Positions 28,574 to 38,711 of a stretch of DNA of 38,711 nucleotides are shown in pieces. The position numbers and the translations under genes were made by a program. A model generated the notes under the pieces. That model was not told the origin of the DNA and did not search any database. It saw only the letters and a list, made by a program, of their open reading frames with translations. Within the stretch, counting starts at the first letter, position 1. Each line of letters opens with the position of its first letter. Source of the stretch: a virus; IMG/VR virus record IMGVR_UViG_3300032156_000037, positions 1 to 38,711 of that record; one strand, given 5' to 3'.

Positions 28574-29589
28574 TTATCTGCGGCGACGCTCTGACCGAAC
28601 TCCGCAAGTTGCCGGATGAGTCGGCGAATATGTGCGTCACGTCCCCGCCGTATTGGGGGCTGAGGGACTACGGCGTCACCGGACAACTCGGCCTTGAGAA
28701 AACGCCCGAGGAATACGTCGCTCGCATGGTCGAGGTGTTCCGCGAGGTGCGGCGGGCGCTGAAAAAGGACGGGACGTTGTGGCTGAATCTCGGGGACTGC
28801 TACCATTCGGGCGATAGGGGCGGATACCATCGGGCCCGGGCGGGCGTCAAGAAAAACATGGGCCATTCGGGGAATTATAATGACTTTGTTGGAGCCCCGA
28901 ATCGCCGGAGACAAGCAGGACTCAAGGACAAGGATTTGGTCGGGATCCCGTGGGCCGTCGCGTTCGCTCTGCGTGCCGATGGCTGGTATCTCCGCCGAGA
29001 CATTATTTGGAATAAATCGAACCCCATGCCCGAGAGCGTCGCGGATCGGCCCAGCTCTGCACATGAATATATTTTCTTATTCAGCAAGGACGCCCGGTAC
29101 TATTACGATTCCGAATCAATCCGAGAGATAGCGGCGGAGGCGTCCTCGAGGCGCTGGGCGCAAGATGTCCCGGCCCAGATAGGAAGCAATCGGATCCCAG
29201 GAAAAACAAACGGCCCGATGCGTGCCGTCGGTGGCCCCTATGTTCACGGCAACAAACCCGGCCGGGATGACGGGGGGCGATCTTGTAATAAAGCGGGACA
29301 AGAATTTCGGAACTCTCGTTCGGTCTGGACTATCGCAACGACTTTCTATCAAGAGGCAAGTGGTCATTTCGCCACGTTCCCGCCGGAGATTCCCGAGCGG
29401 TGTATCAAGGCCGGGTGTCCGAAGGGCGGGACTGTGCTTGACCCATTTTTCGGAGCCGGGACGACGGGGCTTGTCGCCATGCGGCTAGGCCGGGAGTTCA
29501 TCGGGATAGAATTGAATCCCGATTATTGCGAGATGGCAAGGAAGAGAATCTACGGGACGCTGGGAGCGACAATGGAGGCTAGCCCATGA
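28570..29589 (+). CDS. DNA methyltransferase (N4-cytosine/N6-adenine, beta class)
   Basis: 339 residues, GTG start overlapping the previous stop. Catalytic motif [10 protein letters not shown] is at residues 24-31 and the SAM-binding motif I ([10 protein letters not shown]) lies near residue 293, the beta-class order. [14 protein letters not shown] at the start and [13 protein letters not shown] near the end complete the family pattern. SPPYW is usual for N4-cytosine enzymes but N6-adenine is possible. The central region is a target-recognition domain. No partner endonuclease is seen, so it probably protects phage DNA from host restriction. Confidence 0.9.
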
Positions 29590-30913: not shown

Positions 30914-31071
30914 GATTCTCCCGCTCTTTCCGTTCCGGTCTCGCCGGGTTTCTCGCTTTCCTTGTACTCGTGGCGCTCTGGATAATCATCACGGACGAGC
31001 GGTGTTCCCGCAACGTCTCAGGCGACGAGACGGCGGGGATGGCAACGCAGCAAATTCCGTTCAAGGAGTGA
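30910..31071 (+). CDS. 53-residue single-pass membrane protein
   Basis: ATGA overlap. Basic N-terminus (RFSRSFRSG), membrane segment (LAGFLAFLVLVALWIIIT), acidic C-terminal region. Topology suggests N-in with the tail outside. No family recognised. Second member of a four-gene membrane cassette. Confidence 0.55.
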   Translation: MRFSRSFRSGLAGFLAFLVLVALWIIITDERCSRNVSGDETAGMATQQIPFKE

Positions 31072-31074
31072 AAC

Positions 31075-31287
31075 ATGCCTCTATTCCTGAAAATCCTACT
31101 GTCGGCCCTGGCGGTCTGCGCCCTGGCCTGGTTCATCTGGGCGTTCGACCGTGGCGTCAAGCGGGTCAAGTTGGCGAAGGCCCAATGCCGAGCGTCCATG
31201 AACAAGTGGCTTCTCGAAAAGGCGGACGAGTGCGAACTCAACGACGACACGACCAAGATCCTCCCCGTCATCGAGGAGGAGAAGTGA
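31075..31287 (+). CDS. 70-residue single-pass membrane protein
   Basis: AAGGAG upstream of ATG 31075. Membrane segment at residues 4-23 (FLKILLSALAVCALAWFIWA), then a long basic/acidic cytoplasmic or periplasmic helix ending VIEEEK. Third gene of the membrane cassette. Confidence 0.6.
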   Translation: MPLFLKILLSALAVCALAWFIWAFDRGVKRVKLAKAQCRASMNKWLLEKADECELNDDTTKILPVIEEEK

Positions 31288-31448
31288 ATAAATATCAATT
31301 CCGATCTTTATATAATCTCGGGTGGACGATTAGCGCACAAATATTTTGGCTTCACTCTACGGGGAAAACCTTAAAAGTGTTTTGGATGATTCTGTTTTTC
31401 TTGGGACTCATCAACACTTTTTTGGATGCCGTTAAGGGGAACAGATGA
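31284..31448 (+). CDS. 54-residue membrane protein
   Basis: GTG start on GTGA overlap, GGAGGAG upstream. Two hydrophobic stretches (ISAQIFWLH, VFWMILFFLGLINTFL). The gene is AT-rich compared with its neighbours. Fourth member of the cassette; overlaps the resolvase by 4 bp. Confidence 0.5.
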   Translation: MNKYQFRSLYNLGWTISAQIFWLHSTGKTLKVFWMILFFLGLINTFLDAVKGNR

Positions 31449-31780
31449 CCAACTACTCCCGTGGCGCGAACTTCGAGCGCACCGTCAAGGCCGACTTGGA
31501 GGCGAGGGGCTATCTCGTTATCCGCGCCGCAGGGTCGCACGGCATCATGGACCTCGTGGCGTTTCGACCTCCCCGCGCGCCCCATGCAACCGGAGAAACG
31601 TGGCTGGTTCAATGCAAAATCCACGGAACGATATCGCCAGCCGATCGCAAGGAACTCTATGAGACTGCCGCCAAGTGGGGGGCCTGGGCCGTCCGCGCGT
31701 CGCGGCCCAAGCGGGGGGCGATTCTTTACGAGCGGCTTTTCGTGAGGGGCGGGGAGTGCTGGGTGGAGATTTTCGCATGA
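31445..31780 (+). CDS. Hjc-like Holliday junction resolvase
   Basis: 111 residues, ATGA overlap. The Hjc pattern is clear: SRGANFERTVKADLEARGY with catalytic Glu, RAAGSHGIMDLVAF with catalytic Asp, then LVQCKIHG with the Q-C-K version of ExK. Hjc-type enzymes cleave four-way junctions. The window also carries an endonuclease VII, so two unrelated junction nucleases coexist. Confidence 0.85.
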   Translation: MTNYSRGANFERTVKADLEARGYLVIRAAGSHGIMDLVAFRPPRAPHATGETWLVQCKIHGTISPADRKELYETAAKWGAWAVRASRPKRGAILYERLFVRGGECWVEIFA

Positions 31781-31944
31781 CCCCCGACATCGCCCTCTGC
31801 GTTTGGCGGAAGGAATGCCCGCTTGCCGGAATCTGCTACCGCGTGCTGGCCGAGCCGGACGAGGTACGTCAAAACTACTTTGCCCCGTCGAAGCTCGGGA
31901 AAGAATGTCCATATTTTATCGAGGACAAGAAGGAGAAAACATAA
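31777..31944 (+). CDS. small Cys-containing protein
   Basis: 55 residues, ATGA overlap. Four Cys (residues 8, 14, 20 and 44) in CVWRKECPLAGICYR and a later ECPYF. The spacing suits a metal or Fe-S site but not a standard zinc ribbon. Similar small proteins occur beside phage nucleases; function unknown. Confidence 0.55.
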   Translation: MTPDIALCVWRKECPLAGICYRVLAEPDEVRQNYFAPSKLGKECPYFIEDKKEKT

Positions 31945-32537
31945 TGCTACGCAAAAGCCATGTGATTAGTTCAGAAACCCGCACTAAAATAGCAAAGGCG
32001 CTGCGCGGTCGCAAACTCAGCCCGGAACACTGTGTTAAATTGTCGGAAGCGCATAAGGGAATTAAACTCAGCCCGGAACACTGCGCGAAAATATCGGCGG
32101 CTAATCACGACCGCGCCCACCTACTTAGCCCGGAGGCTCACGCGAAATTAGTAGCAGCAAATCGAATGCGCATTGGCGAGAAGCGCAGTTTGGCAACTCG
32201 CATTAAAATGTCGGCAATGCGCCGCGGGGAGAATAATCCAAATTGGAAAGGAGGGAGATGTAGATCTGGACCATCCGGGCGCGGATATTTCTATATACTT
32301 CATCCAGACCATCCTTTCGCCACGCGCTCCGGCTATGTGGCCGAACATCGCCTCGTGATGGAGGCCCACTTAGGCCGAACCCTTCTCCCCACAGAAGTCG
32401 TTCATCATATAAATGGCGATATCGAAGATAATCACATCGAAAATCTAATGTTGTTCTCGTCTCAAGGCAAACATCGCAATAATCATGGGAACAAACGAAG
32501 AGGAGGATTACGTGGGAACACCAGCACCATTGTTTGA
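31944..32537 (+). CDS. NUMOD3-HNH endonuclease 1 (free-standing homing type)
   Basis: 197 residues from ATG 31944. Residues 10-95 contain NUMOD3-like DNA-binding repeats ([42 protein letters not shown]). PNWKGGR follows at 100. The HNH_3 nuclease core is at 131-177: [35 protein letters not shown]. Its DNA is AT-richer than the flanks. It overlaps the start of the next gene. A free-standing homing endonuclease that nicks or cuts relatives lacking it. Confidence 0.9.
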   Translation: MLRKSHVISSETRTKIAKALRGRKLSPEHCVKLSEAHKGIKLSPEHCAKISAANHDRAHLLSPEAHAKLVAANRMRIGEKRSLATRIKMSAMRRGENNPNWKGGRCRSGPSGRGYFYILHPDHPFATRSGYVAEHRLVMEAHLGRTLLPTEVVHHINGDIEDNHIENLMLFSSQGKHRNNHGNKRRGGLRGNTSTIV

Positions 32538-32976
32538 CCGACTCAAGGCGTGCATCGAGAAACACGCCGACTGGACGGACGAGAGAATCGCCGCCGCTAT
32601 CGTCGGCTCGACCCGCGCTATGGTTCGAGCCATCCGGGCCGGGGAGCCGTTGCCGGAAAGGGCGGCCATCGCCGAAGTCCGGCTCGATACCGGGACCATC
32701 AGCTTCGCCAAGGTCCGGGAGAGATACGATATCGCCGCGGCGATCCGGGTAGAGTTGGCGAAGCTCAAACCGGGGGCCCTGATACCGGAGCGCGAGCTCT
32801 GCCAGCGGGCGGCGGGAAAGGACAACAACCGATTCCGCCGGGCCGTCGAAAACAACGCCGACGAGTTTCGGAAAAACCGCATCAAGTTGGCCCTGAAAGA
32901 CGACCCGCCCGATGGCCGCTTTTATTGGGGTCGACGCGAGGATATTCAGGAAGCAACCCGCCTACGGGATGAATAG
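32512..32976 (+). CDS. HTH-like early protein
   Basis: 154 residues from GTG 32512, with AGGAGG 5 bases upstream; an in-frame ATG at 32485 lacks a ribosome site. Residues 1-70 are helical with a possible HTH (DERIAAAIVGSTRAMVRAIR). Residues 80-154 form a second helical domain (FAKVRERYDIAAAIRVELAK). The ribosome site lies inside the 3' end of the HNH gene, as expected when the HNH inserted just upstream. Confidence 0.65.
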   Translation: MGTPAPLFDRLKACIEKHADWTDERIAAAIVGSTRAMVRAIRAGEPLPERAAIAEVRLDTGTISFAKVRERYDIAAAIRVELAKLKPGALIPERELCQRAAGKDNNRFRRAVENNADEFRKNRIKLALKDDPPDGRFYWGRREDIQEATRLRDE

Positions 32977-32985
32977 GAGATAAGC

Positions 32986-33900
32986 ATGAAAAAAGAAAAA
33001 GAAATCAACCTCGGGGAACTCCAGGACCTTTTGGCCGAAGGGCCGGGGGGCAGGGAGAAGATCAAGAAGCAGGCCGCCGCCATCAGCGCGCTCCAGGAAT
33101 CGCTCATGGCCACCTACAAGCGGCAGAAGCCCTACGAGGTGCCGGTCAAGGCCGCTGACAACAAGATCCGCTTCGGACTCATCGGGGACACGCACATCGG
33201 CTCGCTCTACTACCAGCGGGACGCGCTCCGGGCCTTTTACGAACGGTGCAACGACGAGGGTGTCGCGGATATCCTTCATGCCGGTGACGTCCTGGCCGGA
33301 TGGCGCGTTTACAAGGGCCAAGAGTTCGAGCTGAGGCCGGACGCGAAATCCTGGCCGGAGCAACGGGACATCTTCGCCAACGAAGTGCCCAAGATTCCGG
33401 GGATGCGGACGATCTTCATTACCGGGAACCACGACAACAGTTTCAAGAAACTCGTGGGGATGGTCGTTGGGGACGAACTCGGGCGGCTCCGGGAGGACTG
33501 GAAATTCATCGGTCAGGACGTCGGCGACGTGGACCTGATGACGCACGGCTCGAATGAAAAGCCGGGCCAGAAGTTCCGCGTCCGCCTGCTCCACCCTGGC
33601 GGCGGGACGGCCTATGCCGTGAGCTACCACGCCCAGAAGATCGTCGAGTCCATGCCGGGCGGGGAAAAGCCGGACCTTATCGGCATCGGCCACTACCACA
33701 AGGCGATGTTCATGCCCGCCTACCGGAACGTGTCCTGCATCCTGACCGGGACGTTCGAAACGCAGACGCCGTTCATGCTCCAGCACAGTATCGCCGCGCA
33801 CGTCGGCGGCTGGATTATCACCGTCCATCTTAACGAGCGGAAGAAACTCACGAGTCGGGTCGAGGCCGAATTCGTGGGATTTTACAGCGAGGCACGCTAA
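32986..33900 (+). CDS. calcineurin-like metallophosphoesterase
   Basis: 304 residues, AGGAGAT upstream. Metal motifs in order: GDTH at 67-70, GD at 100-101, GNHD at 147-150, LLHPGGG near 205 and GIGHYHK near 234. Together they build a two-metal active site. N-terminal 55 residues are a charged helical extension. Phage members of this superfamily include SbcD/Mre11-like nucleases and protein phosphatases; the companion recombination genes favour DNA end processing. No SbcC partner is present. Confidence 0.85.
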   Translation: MKKEKEINLGELQDLLAEGPGGREKIKKQAAAISALQESLMATYKRQKPYEVPVKAADNKIRFGLIGDTHIGSLYYQRDALRAFYERCNDEGVADILHAGDVLAGWRVYKGQEFELRPDAKSWPEQRDIFANEVPKIPGMRTIFITGNHDNSFKKLVGMVVGDELGRLREDWKFIGQDVGDVDLMTHGSNEKPGQKFRVRLLHPGGGTAYAVSYHAQKIVESMPGGEKPDLIGIGHYHKAMFMPAYRNVSCILTGTFETQTPFMLQHSIAAHVGGWIITVHLNERKKLTSRVEAEFVGFYSEAR

Positions 33901-33903
33901 CCC

Positions 33904-33933
33904 CCTCGCCTACGGGTGAGGATAAATCTTTTT
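33904..33933 (+). terminator. intrinsic terminator / attenuator
   Basis: CCTCGCC (33904-33910) pairs with GGTGAGG (33915-33921) around TACG, and a TTTTT ends at 33933. The T-run overlaps the ribosome site of the next gene, so it may partly terminate the early transcript and regulate the downstream block. Confidence 0.6.
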
Positions 33934-33944
33934 AGGAGGTTTCT

Positions 33945-34091
33945 ATGATTCGACTCGGAAACAAGGTCAGGGACAAGGTAAGTGGCATCGAGGGCATCGC
34001 CAAGCACGGACCGGACCCCGCGAAATGGCCCGAGTCCATGAGGCCCAAGGCCCCGGCGGAGACGGAGCCGTCTGTCGCTCCCGGCTGCTGA
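33945..34091 (+). CDS. 48-residue small protein
   Basis: ATG 33945 with AGGAGG upstream. N-terminus LGNKVRDKVSGIEGIA matches the start of a common phage SH3-like family, but the rest is short and Pro-rich, so this looks like a shortened member. TGA at 34089-34091. Confidence 0.6.
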   Translation: MIRLGNKVRDKVSGIEGIAKHGPDPAKWPESMRPKAPAETEPSVAPGC

Positions 34092-34099
34092 GGGACGCC

Positions 34100-34453
34100 A
34101 TGCCCATCATCGTCACCTATCTCAACCCCAACATGAGGCCGGACATCGTCGAGGGCGTCTCCTGGAAGCAACTCGACGAGAACTCGCCGCGCCTCGGGAC
34201 GATCAACCTTAAGTCTCTCGGCGACGGCCACCACATCATCGTTAATAAGTCCGCCGTGGCGAAGGCCGAGGAGTTCACGGTGGAGGCCTGGCAGAAGCTG
34301 AAGGACGAGGACGAGGCGGCCGCCGCCGCCCAGGCGAAGGCGCGGTCCGACGCGGAGACCAAGAAGAAGTCAGACGCCGCGACGCTGGCCCTCCTTGAAT
34401 CCAAGACGCTCCGGGGGCGGATTCGGAAGCTCTTCCACGTCAAAAAGGGCTGA
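34100..34453 (+). CDS. hypothetical protein with helical Ala/Lys-rich C-terminus
   Basis: 117 residues from ATG 34100 (GAGGGA upstream). The first half is mixed (IIVTYLNPNMRPDIVEG). The second is a long charged helix (KLKDEDEAAAAAQAKARSD) ending in a basic RIRKLFHVKKG. No known family. Confidence 0.55.
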   Translation: MPIIVTYLNPNMRPDIVEGVSWKQLDENSPRLGTINLKSLGDGHHIIVNKSAVAKAEEFTVEAWQKLKDEDEAAAAAQAKARSDAETKKKSDAATLALLESKTLRGRIRKLFHVKKG

Positions 34454-34461
34454 GATAACAC

Positions 34462-34959
34462 ATGGCAATACAGCAGGCGGAGGGCGGGTTCGACATCAAG
34501 CGGCTCAAGTTCTATCGGGAGCGGGCGCGACTGACGCAAACCGAACTCGGGAAGAGAGCGGGCGTGTGCGCCGTGCAGATCTGCCACTTGGAGAAAGGGA
34601 AGCACAAGCCTCACCCCAAGACGGCCGCCAAGCTCTACGCCGCGCTCTCCGCCTGCTTCCGGGGTGGCCTGCCGATGGGGGGCATGTACGCTGACGGACT
34701 GCGCCGGGCCGGTTGCCCCCACTGCGGAGCCCCGAACGGCCACACGCTTGAGGTCTGTATCCCCGGGATTGAGCTCCAGTGTGTCAGTTGCGCCCGGGTC
34801 TTCCGCCTCGACGCGAAGGGACGGGCCTATGTCCCGGGTCCGGTATCGGCACCGGCAAAGATTCTCCTAATGCACGAGATGTCGGCGGCCGCCCGGGCGA
34901 GGATATCGGCCGGCCAGCGGCGGCGGCATGCCAGGGAGAGGGGAGAGGAGGAAGCATGA
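34462..34959 (+). CDS. XRE HTH + zinc ribbon + NUMOD3-like tail regulator 1
   Basis: 165 residues. Residues 11-66 are an XRE helix-turn-helix (RLTQTELGKRAGVCAVQICH). Residues 85-110 form a zinc ribbon (CPHC...CVSC). Residues 139-160 are a basic helix MSAAARARISAGQRRRHARE that resembles the NUMOD3 helices of the HNH genes. The same three-part order occurs in the protein at 36642-37160, so these are paralogues. Predicted DNA-binding regulator with up to three DNA contacts. The architecture is not one I recognise from known families. Confidence 0.8.
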   Translation: MAIQQAEGGFDIKRLKFYRERARLTQTELGKRAGVCAVQICHLEKGKHKPHPKTAAKLYAALSACFRGGLPMGGMYADGLRRAGCPHCGAPNGHTLEVCIPGIELQCVSCARVFRLDAKGRAYVPGPVSAPAKILLMHEMSAAARARISAGQRRRHARERGEEEA

Positions 34960-35177
34960 CCAAGCCGAAGGTCCAGACGAGGAAGGTGTTCATCATAACG
35001 ACCCCCGCCGGGAGCCTCCATTACGGATTCATGGAGGTCACGGAGAAATTAGCGGAACATCGCGCCGAAGAGGTATTCGGGCGGCAAGGGCAAGTGTGTC
35101 TTTGCGGCTGTGGAAAGAAGTTCGACGGATTCCGCGTCGTCCGCGCAACCCTGACATGGACGATGAAAGGAAAGTAG
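34956..35177 (+). CDS. small hypothetical protein
   Basis: 73 residues, ATGA overlap with the regulator. Beta-rich start (RKVFIITTPAGSLHYGFMEV) and a CLCGCGKKFDGF knuckle near residue 50 that could bind zinc. Basic C-terminus. Function unknown. Confidence 0.55.
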   Translation: MTKPKVQTRKVFIITTPAGSLHYGFMEVTEKLAEHRAEEVFGRQGQVCLCGCGKKFDGFRVVRATLTWTMKGK

Positions 35178-35178
35178 G

Positions 35179-35445
35179 ATGACCATCCAAGAACGACTTT
35201 CGACAATTAAGGCTCGGCACCTAGTCTTTCATGCCGTTCAAATTGGATTAATAGCGGGCAGGCGTGTGAACGTCTTGACCAAAAGAGGCGTTCAAATCGG
35301 CCATCTCGACTATTCCCTTGAGTGGCGGTGTTATATCCTCTGCCCGTACAGGGATACGATTTGGTCAAAGGGTTGCCTCGATGATGTGGGCAAGGCGCTC
35401 GCCATTCTGGACGAACCCGCCCCCGCGAAAGGAGAAGGACGATGA
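35179..35445 (+). CDS. small hypothetical protein
   Basis: 88 residues, AAGTAGG just upstream. Beta-rich (ARHLVFHAVQIGLIAGRRVN, SLEWRCYILCPYRDTI). Overlaps the next gene by 4 bp. No family recognised. Confidence 0.55.
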   Translation: MTIQERLSTIKARHLVFHAVQIGLIAGRRVNVLTKRGVQIGHLDYSLEWRCYILCPYRDTIWSKGCLDDVGKALAILDEPAPAKGEGR

Positions 35446-35639
35446 GTATGCAAACCCTAGAAAGAGCGATTCTCTCAGAGTTAAAAACGGTTGCCAATAA
35501 CCCAAAACTGAAAATGAAGGATATGCTCGAATGGTCAACGGGTCCGGTTGAACCACACGAGGGAGAGGTCGTATTGAATCTCCCAGACATGAACGTCAAC
35601 TGCGCCCTTCTGACGATGCTCGACAAGAGGAAGCCATGA
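35442..35639 (+). CDS. small hypothetical protein
   Basis: 65 residues, GGAGAAGG upstream and ATGA overlaps on both sides. Helical N-terminal half (LERAILSELKTVANNPKLKM) and a strand-like second half. Function unknown. Confidence 0.5.
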   Translation: MSMQTLERAILSELKTVANNPKLKMKDMLEWSTGPVEPHEGEVVLNLPDMNVNCALLTMLDKRKP

Positions 35640-36115
35640 CCCCCCGTGCGCCGTCGAGGGAGAGGGTCTTTAACATCCATGAATTGAAGGCGTGGCTCAA
35701 TGAGTTCATGCCGCTCAAGGGCGGGGTGCTAGAAGAAGTGATAGCCCTCATAGCGATGGTTGATGAGGTTAAATCTCTTGAGGCCGAGAACGAGCGGCTG
35801 AAAGAAGATGTCGGCAGGCTTGGTGTTCAAAATGAAATGCTCAAGGGGCCGTGGTCAAAAATAAAAATAGTAGGTGGAGCGGGTTCTTGGAAAGACAAAT
35901 ATTTCAACGCCTCTGACCTGTGCCAATTTCTTCGTGAAGACAACGACAGGAAGAAGGCCCAACTCGCCAAGCAAGCCCCGCTCATCGAGGCGGTCATGGG
36001 GGCGGACAATAAGAAACTTTTAGACGAGGCCGATATTCTGCGAGACTTCGGCGGAGAAGAGGACCTATCTGTTTCTCTCATCCTCCGCGCCGCCCTCAAG
36101 TTTAGGAAAGAATGA
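35636..36115 (+). CDS. coiled-coil protein, paralogue of the protein at 30157-30495
   Basis: 159 residues, ATGA overlap. A central coiled coil ([20 protein letters not shown]) and the C-terminal pattern L-x-K-Q-x-P-L-I-E-A-V ... [11 protein letters not shown] shared with the shorter protein at 30157-30495. It overlaps HNH endonuclease 2 by 4 bp. Function unknown. Confidence 0.65.
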
Positions 36116-36645
36116 CCGCCCCCCAGTCTGCCCTCTTTAAGCGAGGATTCAAACATAGTCCGGAAGCACGAGCGAAGATATCGATGGCGCTTCGAGGTCG
36201 AAAATTCAGCCCGGAACATTGCGCGAAAATAGCCGCCGCACAACGCGGCCCAAAAAACCATAACTTTGGGAAGCGGGTGAGTCAAGAGACGAGAGAAAAA
36301 TTGTCGGCGGCAAGTTTGGGCCGTCCCAAAAGCCCAGAACACCGGGCCAGCCTGAGTGTCGCAAAGCGTGGTGCCAATCATCCCAATTGGAAAGGGGGCC
36401 GCCATAAGAATAGCGATGGCTATATATATATTTTCTTGCCGAACCATCCGCACCATAATGGCAAGGGCCGCGTTTGGGAGCATCGCCTTGTTATGGAGGC
36501 GCACCTTGGCCGGACCCTCCTTCCCACGGAAATCGTTCATCACATCAATGGAATTCGGGACGATAACCGAATCGAAAATCTGACGTTGTTTTCTTCCCTT
36601 GGGAAGCATATTGGCTATCACAACGCCAAGAGGAAAGTGAAGTGA
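36112..36645 (+). CDS. NUMOD3-HNH endonuclease 2
   Basis: 177 residues. NUMOD3-like repeats at residues 14-87 ([50 protein letters not shown]), PNWKGGR near 92, and HNH_3 at 121-166: [35 protein letters not shown]. Clearly a paralogue of the gene at 31944-32537, almost identical around the nuclease core but diverged in its repeats. Its last bases overlap regulator 2 by GTGA. Confidence 0.9.
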
Positions 36646-37160
36646 ATACACTCAGGGCGCACCGCAAGGCCCGCGGCATCCGTCAACTGGACCTTGCACG
36701 GTTGGCCCACGTCGCTCAGGCCGATATCGTTTCATTCGAGAAGGGGGGGCGGCTCCCTACCATCGGCCAAGCGAAACGGATCGCCCTGGCCCTCGGCCTC
36801 AAAGTCGAGGCATTATTCACCGATGGATTCCGGGAGCAGAGCAAGCACACGGGACGGCCAATCAAGAGTTATGTGCCGTATATGCCGCCTGCGCCGGTTC
36901 CGCATCCGAGTAGTGGGCTGCGTCCGGCCGATTCGCGCCGCCTTGTCTGCCCTCGTTGCGGGGCGTCGTCATACAGTCTATGCGACCTCCCCGGCCTGGC
37001 CTTTCAATGTATCCTGTGCGGCCGTTCGTTCGGGATGGATGGGAAGATGGCGGAGCCGAAGACACCGAGGGCCGTGAAGATGTCAGCGGAAACGAAGGCG
37101 AAGATGTCCATCGGGCAGAGGGCGCGGCGTGCCGGGGAAAGGGAGATGCGCGATGAGTGA
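36642..37160 (+). CDS. XRE HTH + zinc ribbon + NUMOD3-like tail regulator 2
   Basis: 172 residues, GTG start overlapping the HNH stop. HTH at residues 1-60 ([20 protein letters not shown]). A Pro-rich linker leads to a zinc ribbon (C103/C106, C123/C126: CPRC and CILC). The basic C-terminal helix [19 protein letters not shown] at 147-165 resembles a NUMOD3 unit. Same architecture as regulator 1, with a longer linker. Likely DNA-binding transcriptional or replication regulator. Confidence 0.8.
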
Positions 37161-37452
37161 CCCCGCTGTGAAGAAAAGGCTCAATAACGCCAAGCGGAAG
37201 ATCACCGCGACGCTCACCCTGGCCGGGTTCGATGTCTATGCCTTCGAGGCTGGGCCGTTCCACCTCTGCGCCGACAGCCGGGATGGCGGAAAGCGTATCA
37301 GGATATGCTTCGGTTCGACGAATGCCGACGAGGCCAAGGCCATGAGCCGCGCTGTCATGCCATCGAACTGTCACCGCGAGGCTTGGCAGGTCTCCGATGA
37401 CGGGAAGCGGTTCGTCATCGGGCGGATCGCGGAAATGAAGAAGAAGTCTTAA
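37153..37452 (+). CDS. hypothetical early protein
   Basis: 99 residues from ATG 37153, overlapping regulator 2 by 8 bp. Basic helix (VKKRLNNAKRKITATLTLAG), strands (FDVYAFEAGPFHLC, KRIRICFGSTNADE) and a basic end. Last gene before the terminator. Function unknown. Confidence 0.6.
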   Translation: MSDPAVKKRLNNAKRKITATLTLAGFDVYAFEAGPFHLCADSRDGGKRIRICFGSTNADEAKAMSRAVMPSNCHREAWQVSDDGKRFVIGRIAEMKKKS

Positions 37453-37507
37453 ACGAATGTCAATACCCTAATTCCCCCTCGTAACCCGTAGATATAGGCA
37501 CCATTTG

Positions 37508-37536
37508 AGGCCCCCATCAGGCGGGGCCTTTTTTTT
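37508..37536 (+). terminator. strong intrinsic terminator closing the early region
   Basis: AGGCCCC (37508-37514) pairs with GGGGCCT (37523-37529) around an 8-base loop, and eight T (37529-37536) follow. This is a textbook rightward terminator separating the early block from the lysis genes. Confidence 0.9.
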
Positions 37537-37577
37537 CGACGCCGCCACAAAAAAACCGGGTGTATGTCTATGCCAGC

Positions 37578-37970
37578 ATGCCAAAGGACTATTTCCCCGA
37601 GGGCTTCGCGTGTGCCGATAAGTGTGGCCTCGCGTCATTCGACCCGAAAATGAGGGCAATCCTCAATCTCGGGCGGGAGATGTTCGGGCGGCCCCTGATA
37701 ATCAATTCGGCGTGCCGGTGCGCCGAACATAATATGCACGTCGGCGGTGCCAGGAAGTCCGCGCACCTCGTCGGCCCGGACGGTCTCTGTCACGCCGCCG
37801 ATATAAGATGCCTCTCAGATATCACCCGCGCCGAACTCCATGAGATTTTCTCTCACCTGGGGATTCGACGCTTCGAGGTGTCGGATGCCCACATTCACGT
37901 TGATAACGCGGTCTGGTTGCCGACGCCGCTTTTGAAGGCGGTCACTTTCGCCATCGTGCCGGAGGGATAA
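37578..37970 (+). CDS. M15-family peptidase endolysin
   Basis: 130 residues from ATG 37578; an in-frame GTG at 37560 would add six residues. The start region lacks a good ribosome site in either case. Peptidase M15_3 features: INSACRCAEHN, the zinc ligands in KSAHLVG, CHAADIRC and DAHIHVD, and the usual GIRRFEVSD segment before the last His. It would cleave peptide bonds of the host cell-wall peptidoglycan at the end of infection. No signal peptide, so it needs the holin-like protein encoded next. Confidence 0.88.
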   Translation: MPKDYFPEGFACADKCGLASFDPKMRAILNLGREMFGRPLIINSACRCAEHNMHVGGARKSAHLVGPDGLCHAADIRCLSDITRAELHEIFSHLGIRRFEVSDAHIHVDNAVWLPTPLLKAVTFAIVPEG

Positions 37971-37971
37971 C

Positions 37972-38187
37972 ATGAAACTCTTCAACTTCGAAGTCCGCAC
38001 CGGCCCCGGCTGGCTCCTGACTTTCGGGGCAACGGTCGTCTACGCTTTCAAAATGAACCCTCCGTTTGCCGAGGCCTGGATTGCCTTCGCGGCTTTCTTC
38101 ACGCTGTTGATGGGCCGCCGACTCTGGAAGGAACTCAAGCTCCCGAACGGGACGACGCTGACATCGCCGGAAGAAAACGGGAAGTGA
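37972..38187 (+). CDS. holin-like membrane protein
   Basis: 71 residues. Two hydrophobic segments (GWLLTFGATVVYAFKM and AWIAFAAFFTLLMG) with a short basic C-terminus (RRLWKELK). It follows the endolysin by one base and precedes the spanin-like gene, the usual site for a holin. Small size and two membrane spans fit, but holins share little sequence so the call rests on topology and position. Confidence 0.7.
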   Translation: MKLFNFEVRTGPGWLLTFGATVVYAFKMNPPFAEAWIAFAAFFTLLMGRRLWKELKLPNGTTLTSPEENGK

Positions 38188-38711
38188 AAAAGCCCCTGGC
38201 CCTAATCCTCATCGCCTTCGCTCTCGGCGCGGCCTTGGGCGCGGGCGTAGTCCTGAAATCCTGTGGCCCGGACAAGGGCTACTGGATCGAGCGGGCGAAG
38301 TACGACAAGGACGTTGCGGCCCAGGAAGCGAAGACAACCGAAGCGCTCGCCATGATCCGCGAGGCGGGCCAGATCATCATCGACAAGGACAACGACCTGG
38401 CGGCCAGGGAAGCGAAGATCGACGGACTCGAAGCACAGGCCGCCGACTACTTCACCGAGCTTGACGCGCTGGCCAAAGAAACAGCGGTGCTCAAAGTGAA
38501 TGCTCAAGCGGTCATCGCGGCGAACCCCGCCGTCCGAGCTCTGGTCGAGAATTACGAACTCCGTATTGCCGCCTCTGACCGCCGGGTCTTTACGCTCACC
38601 GCCATCATCGACGAGGAGCGCATGGCGAAGGGCGACTGGATCGCTAAGTACGGCGCGGCCATCGTCCAGCGCGACGAGTGGCATCGGCTTTACGACGACG
38701 AGCACGCGCTC
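38184..38711 (+). CDS. spanin-like membrane-anchored coiled-coil protein (runs off the window)
   Basis: GTG start 38184 overlapping the holin-like stop; 176 codons are open to the window edge. An N-terminal membrane anchor (LALILIAFALGAALGAGVV) with a Cys just after it (KSCGPD), then a long coiled coil (IDKDNDLAAREAKIDGLEAQ). Rz-type inner-membrane spanins have this layout, and the gene follows endolysin and holin-like genes. The C-terminus is outside the window. If correct, the host has an outer membrane. Confidence 0.7.
   Translation, partial: MKKPLALILIAFALGAALGAGVVLKSCGPDKGYWIERAKYDKDVAAQEAKTTEALAMIREAGQIIIDKDNDLAAREAKIDGLEAQAADYFTELDALAKETAVLKVNAQAVIAANPAVRALVENYELRIAASDRRVFTLTAIIDEERMAKGDWIAKYGAAIVQRDEWHRLYDDEHAL

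Follow-up and report, generated by a model that had tools for sequence, protein, structure and literature searches.

Two genes of the viral record analysed here (a linear record of 38,711 bases, hereafter the window, with its main genes all on the plus strand) encode proteins, regulator 1 and regulator 2, in which an XRE-type helix-turn-helix (HTH) is followed by a four-cysteine (C4) ribbon and a basic C-terminal tail. Together with a homologue on IMG/VR contig IMGVR_UViG_3300031707_000087 (G001, also indexed as L003), three proteins from two phages share this real, uncatalogued architecture. We favour, with a probability of roughly 0.55, the reading that both are regulators of interchangeable pieces, with the tail adding contacts, and that the adjoining HNH endonuclease gene (HNH2) is a separate gene at the 5′ end of regulator 2 that was lost in G001. 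The parts of the two genes are located as follows.

34462–34959, plus strand: regulator 1, with XRE HTH, C4 ribbon and basic tail (ORF, Pfam HTH_31/HTH_3, AlphaFold)
34501–34647, plus strand: HTH of regulator 1, residues 14–62 (Pfam HTH_31)
34714–34791, plus strand: putative C4 ribbon of regulator 1, C85-x2-C88 to C107-x2-C110 (sequence; cysteines invariant among homologues)
34879–34956, plus strand: basic tail of regulator 1, MSAAARARISAGQRRRHARERGEEEA, predicted helix (AlphaFold; PSSM score of 17.0 bits; DNA identity to G001)
36642–37160, plus strand: regulator 2, with XRE HTH, C4 ribbon and basic tail (ORF, Pfam, AlphaFold)
36651–36809, plus strand: HTH of regulator 2 (Pfam HTH_3, residues 4–56, 6.6e−8; Foldseek CylR2/C.AhdI)
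36948–37019, plus strand: putative C4 ribbon of regulator 2, C103-x2-C106 to C123-x2-C126 (sequence, AlphaFold)
37080–37157, plus strand: tail of regulator 2, predicted helix, NUMOD3-like (Pfam tail search, profile scan, AlphaFold)

Both reading frames were intact, regulator 1 (165 aa) starting with ATG and regulator 2 (172 aa) with GTG. Pfam HTH matches were significant in each (best E values 1.7e−6 and 6.6e−8, respectively), with HTH_31 and HTH_3 scoring 28.7 and 23.7 bits in regulator 1 and 28.6 and 32.9 bits in regulator 2, above the Pfam cut-offs of 27 and 23, and by this definition the two are XRE/HTH_3 DNA-binding proteins. Foldseek searches with the HTH part of the AlphaFold models returned CylR2, C.AhdI, SinR and phage repressors. 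The four cysteines (CxxC...CxxC) and the Q, R and E residues of the tail were invariant across regulator 1, regulator 2 and the G001 homologue, the three members of a thin family alignment. Pfam searches of both regulators gave no zinc-ribbon model over its cut-off and AlphaFold placed only a weak two-strand element at this site in each, and the C4 zinc ribbon is a putative assignment taken from the four cysteines only. The AlphaFold models were confident in the HTH alone (pLDDT mostly 80–90, whole-model mean 63–64) and predicted a C-terminal helix in both proteins, at residues 142–164 of regulator 1 (pLDDT about 67–77) and residues 149–171 of regulator 2 (block pLDDT about 57–62). Pfam, sequence and AlphaFold thus agree with the initial annotation in finding an XRE HTH, four cysteines and a basic C-terminal helix in both genes, while the tail motif it proposed, MSAxxxAxxSxGQRxRR, fits regulator 2 exactly but not regulator 1, which ends in GQRRRH.

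The full-length family was found in none of Pfam, PHROGs and NCBIfam, which bears out for these three collections the earlier statement that the combination belongs to no described family. A zinc-binding part is also combined with an XRE HTH in MqsA-type antitoxins and in aMBF1, but the regulators differ from these in placing the HTH first and in carrying the basic tail, and their NCBIfam matches to both groups were weak, confined to the HTH and far below the cut-offs. Scanning viral contigs for the regulators with protein sequences, alignments and a DNA pattern recovered the G001 homologue only. A tblastn search of 50,697 phage records with full-length, ribbon-tail and tail queries gave HTH-only or chance matches, and regulator matches among 398 genomes of one phylum were confined to the HTH. 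Four candidates considered as further homologues (L004, L005, L036 and L037) were rejected, with one domain only matched in each.

Comparison of the two regulators located their relationship in the C-terminal half. Alignment of the ribbons scored 86 against a shuffle maximum of 49, and alignment of the tails 57 against 43, each exceeding all 2000 of 2000 shuffles, and by sequence the two proteins have homologous ribbons and tails. The HTH heads, on the other hand, were identical at only 13 of 46 positions (28%), an ordinary level for XRE domains, and the best matches of each head to unrelated phage XRE proteins reached 38–46% identity. Since each head stands at least as near to unrelated XRE proteins as to the head of the other regulator, what unites the pair is its C-terminal half, and the description of the two genes as paralogous, made in the initial annotation, applies to ribbon and tail but not to the heads.

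The G001 homologue, 185 aa in length, showed opposite identity gradients against the two regulators. Against regulator 2, its DNA identity was 0.91 in the HTH, 0.83 in the linker, 0.71 in the ribbon and 0.57 at the tail end; against regulator 1, it was 0.40 in the HTH but 0.78 at the tail end, with 88% identity over 43 bases between regulator 1 (34906–34948) and G001 (2694–2736). The G001 protein therefore combines a regulator 2-like head with a regulator 1-like tail end, and these gradients point to a mosaic family in which the 3′ end is the likely unit of exchange. The C-terminus is likely, judging from these alignments, to be a shuffled module swapped between HTH heads. On G001 the regulator is adjoined by a 196-aa protein (L003 2744–3334) with a C-terminal sigma-70 region 4 (Pfam 1.4e−15), whose N-terminus resembles an XRE-type HTH and whose linker contains GRPI like that of regulator 2 (two-sequence E value 7e−4).

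The initial annotation had likened the tail to the NUMOD3 helices of the HNH endonucleases in the same genome. When the regulator 2 tail was searched alone against Pfam, NUMOD3 (PF07460) was the sole family returned, at 13.2 bits (E = 0.088) against a curated cut-off of 20.4 bits, and the tails of regulator 1 and G001 gave no match in the same search. By this cut-off the regulators are not members of NUMOD3, and they answer to the Pfam definition for the HTH only. We also scored a NUMOD3 profile of 16 columns, derived from 49 repeats of HNH and GIY-YIG proteins with the window regulators left out, against the 392 ORFs of both phages. Three HNH proteins ranked at the top, followed by regulator 2 in fourth and regulator 1 in fifth place. 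The tail of regulator 2 reached 23.1 bits, compared with a leave-one-out median of 24.4 for true repeats, and none of 20,000 shuffled tails attained its score; the tail of regulator 1 reached 17.0 bits, a score attained by 13 of 20,000 shuffles, with the next best ORF at 9.2. The G001 tail scored only 3.2 bits, even though this protein is the closest homologue. Judged by these scores and shuffles, the NUMOD3 core helix pattern, SxExxxK(I/M)SxA, stands above chance in regulator 2, is borderline in regulator 1 and does not appear in G001. As a control, 1,035 ORFs of other contigs were scored and the best chance match was an XRE helix at 16.2 bits; since an unrelated XRE helix comes this close, the 17.0 bits of regulator 1 are weak by themselves. 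A PDB search with a NUMOD3 profile from this analysis yielded no homologous chain. The likeness of regulator 2 to NUMOD3 is thus real as a sequence pattern, and homology of the tail to NUMOD3 is possible, while the wider claim that both tails resemble NUMOD3 is weakened by the borderline regulator 1, by G001 and by the sub-cut-off Pfam score.

These scores leave two accounts of the tail to be weighed. The tail may be an ordinary basic amphipathic helix in contact with nucleic acid or protein that converged on NUMOD3, the proteins then being ribbon-bearing XRE repressors or activators; we give this only a little less than an even chance. The richness of the tail in A, R, K, E and S is what such a helix would show, the borderline or negative results of regulator 1 and G001 agree with it, and XRE helices can reach 16.2 bits, but it has to accommodate a regulator 2 score that lies mid-range among true repeats and well clear of all else in the two genomes. 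Alternatively, the tail would be a true NUMOD3 helix, taken from or given to homing endonucleases, which would relate the regulators, nuclease-free as they are, to the DNA-binding part of those enzymes. This is what the place of regulator 2 directly behind the three HNHs, at the level of true repeats and with no shuffle equalling it, would lead one to expect, as would the return of NUMOD3 as the only Pfam family for its tail; a phage protein in which no nuclease domain is recognised (L028 2650–3120) also has clear C-terminal NUMOD3-like motifs, and CapR (PMC10448857) and I-TevI (PMC2988022) provide precedents. We nevertheless consider it unlikely, given the distance of the Pfam score from the cut-off with no match for the other two tails, the low G001 score despite the closest kinship and the 16.2 bits of the unrelated XRE helix. 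In addition, the part of the tail conserved in the family, GQRxRxARER, lies mostly outside the NUMOD3 core. The L028 protein, 156 aa long with two such motifs, is an observation in its own right, showing a NUMOD3-like tail on a non-nuclease more cleanly than either regulator does.

DNA-level comparison likewise gave no trace of copying from the window HNH genes. When synonymous codons were resampled, the tails were no more identical in DNA to the HNH repeats than expected (p = 0.32 and 0.58), and the idea that the tail had recently been copied from HNH NUMOD3 DNA, prompted by shared ATA-TCG codons, was rejected. The proposal that endonuclease DNA-binding modules had been grafted onto the regulators also drew on the overlap of regulator 2 with HNH2, and this overlap turned out to be a gene junction. 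The HNH genes and the junction comprise the following features.

31944–32537, plus strand: HNH1, NUMOD3 repeats and HNH_3 endonuclease, 197 aa (Pfam, start analysis)
36112–36645, plus strand: HNH2, three NUMOD3 stretches and HNH_3 endonuclease, 177 aa (Pfam NUMOD3 6.3e−21, HNH_3 1.2e−11)
36102–36142, plus strand: start of HNH2, with ribosome-binding region, ATG and the first 10 codons (matches the G001 regulator start at 40 of 41 bases)
36143–36658, plus strand: 516 bases in the window, absent from G001, containing the HNH body and the regulator's own start, GTG AAT ACA CTC AGG GC (BLAST, exact string comparison)

HNH1 and HNH2 are free-standing endonuclease genes tightly packed against their neighbours, as are the T4 mob and seg genes (PMC2988022). 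The likely start of HNH1 is the ATG at 31944, which lies in a TAATG overlap with a 55-aa cysteine-containing ORF (31777–31944), the longest-ORF start at 31803 being disfavoured; at the 3′ end it shares 26–53 nt with the next ORF (32485–32976), a packing as tight as that of HNH2, and no homologue was found for this downstream gene. G001 has no HNH2 at its regulator and carries a NUMOD3-HNH gene of its own on the minus strand (28829–29311, L034 8829–9311), which overlaps both the end of a terminase-like ORF and the beginning of the one after it. A further HNH gene related to HNH2 is annotated as lying wholly within a methyltransferase gene in overlapping frames (Mycobacterium phage Constella 61259–62686, L060 1878–3305), at a place annotated in related phages as a methylase with undetermined coding region; this could be a split gene, an intron or an annotation error.

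Regulator 2 overlaps HNH2, as initially annotated, by 4 nt (GTGA, 36642–36645), and the comparison with G001 resolved the junction base by base. G001 2180–2220 matches window 36102–36142 and G001 2219–2633 matches window 36659–37076, so that both flanks of the junction are contiguous in G001 with a 2-base overlap. The common start region leads straight into the regulator in G001, whereas in the window it leads into HNH2 and regulator 2 restarts at the overlapping GTG. In having an uninterrupted homologue in which both flanks are contiguous, the arrangement resembles a split-gene homing endonuclease insertion, for which the uninterrupted form would also have to be the ancestral one. This precise junction accounts for the overlap, and the contact between the two genes reflects gene position and has no bearing on a domain graft. 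No intron family was found in window 31000–38711, and an intron around HNH2 was rejected because no intron RNA was found in the region; an intein was rejected as well, since the 516-base block is almost entirely the HNH ORF, whose stop overlaps the start of regulator 2 in another frame.

Evidence on which of the two arrangements is older came from the regulator starts and from base composition. Five HTH models gained 2.8 to 7.2 bits from the window N-terminus, MNTLRA; from that of G001, four of them gained 0.3 to 1.4 bits and the fifth, RstR, 3.6. Owing to this better fit, the start of regulator 2 looks native and that of G001 looks like a fusion left by HNH loss. One competing account is that HNH2 inserted into an uninterrupted regulator of the G001 type, took over its start and first ten codons and brought a new GTG for the remainder, which would be a variant, at the 5′ end, of the insertion of mobE into nrdA. 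It would explain the contiguous flanks in G001 and the 516 extra bases in the window, HNH insertions into coding sequence are documented (PMC2988022), and the composition of HNH2, with a GC3 of 0.56 against 0.73 for regulator 2, is that expected of an incomer. More broadly, GC3 was 0.49–0.56 in the HNH genes and 0.73–0.81 in the regulators, but an upstream 159-aa gene unrelated to the regulator is also lowish at 0.61, and low GC3 alone is therefore no proof of foreign origin. The leader codons of HNH2 have G or C at 8 of 10 third positions, nearer to the regulator than to the HNH, and this composition weakly favours insertion over deletion. Against insertion, the window regulator begins with a canonical XRE start that fits the HTH models better than that of G001, and a blind insertion is unlikely to supply such a start unless it came with a homologous donor flank. 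We regard insertion as credible at somewhat below even odds, and deletion of the HNH in G001 as slightly ahead of it.

Several known systems resemble parts of this arrangement. In I-TevI, the endonuclease of the T4 td intron, zinc finger, helix and HTH are laid out along the DNA, and this DNA-binding part also serves as an autorepressor of transcription (PMC2988022). Regulators 1 and 2 likewise combine zinc-finger-type, helix and HTH modules, but in place of the I-TevI order (nuclease, zinc finger, helix, HTH) the HTH comes first, is of XRE type and is accompanied by no nuclease, and neither the order nor the homologous modules of I-TevI were found in them. That a true NUMOD3 helix forms the C-terminal arm of XRE-ribbon regulators, as a nuclease-free, reordered counterpart of I-TevI and a module traded beside NUMOD3 endonucleases, is in our estimation rather improbable. 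CapR, a transcriptional repressor of PLE satellites, has a DNA-binding domain in common with the T5orf172 homing endonucleases of phage ICP1 (PMC10448857). This domain is a CxxC...CxC zinc finger, and at the DNA level CapR is more than 70% identical to the endonuclease genes. The regulators may resemble CapR in sharing a DNA-binding domain with homing endonucleases, but unlike CapR they show no link in DNA sequence to the HNH genes. Kinship with homing endonucleases is also reported for the regulator WhiA (PMC3781837).

Genes are also split by homing endonucleases in phage Aeh1 (mobE in nrdA) and in T4 (mobA in gene 60) (PMC2988022). As with mobE in nrdA, the window HNH gene lies inside what is a single coding region in a relative, G001. 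Unlike that case, it separates ten codons only and itself uses the start, regulator 2 begins at its own, native-like start, and loss from G001 is no less likely than insertion.

In our preferred reading, the differing XRE heads would read the operator, and the C4 ribbon would probably be a structural zinc site that serves as a rigid spacer or in dimerisation. The basic tail helix would add DNA contacts, probably on the backbone or in the minor groove in the fashion of a NUMOD3 helix. HNH2 would be a separate, free-standing gene lodged at the 5′ end of regulator 2, whose translation would restart, possibly coupled to that of HNH2, at the GTG within GTGA. The older order was probably HNH followed by regulator, and G001 would have lost the HNH body through a deletion of 516 bases, leaving the HNH start fused to the regulator. 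Regulator 2 stands near the end of its gene block, and a strong terminator-like hairpin with a T run (37507–37530) separates the regulator operon from the lysis genes, where a peptidase M15 lysin gene follows at 37560–37970. From this gene position, a role of regulator 2 in the early-to-late switch is plausible. A Q-like antiterminator role was considered because regulator 2 precedes the terminator and the lysis genes, but no antiterminator family was matched in Pfam or PHROGs, so that such a role may be argued from position only. The phage itself is distant from known phages in its terminase (under 40% identity).

Regulators 1 and 2 represent no new system but a modest variation on the gene shuffling known from phages, and by analogy they are in line with the precedents of I-TevI, CapR and mobE in nrdA. 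They provide a concrete phage case of a regulator family that appears to swap a C-terminal module among differing HTH heads, and for a NUMOD3-HNH gene at the 5′ end of a regulator, the window and G001 give the occupied and the unoccupied site to the exact base. If the tail is NUMOD3, it would join CapR and I-TevI as evidence of DNA-binding parts common to homing endonucleases and regulators; if it is not, the pair would indicate that a selfish gene at the start of another gene can alter or donate the N-terminus of a regulator.
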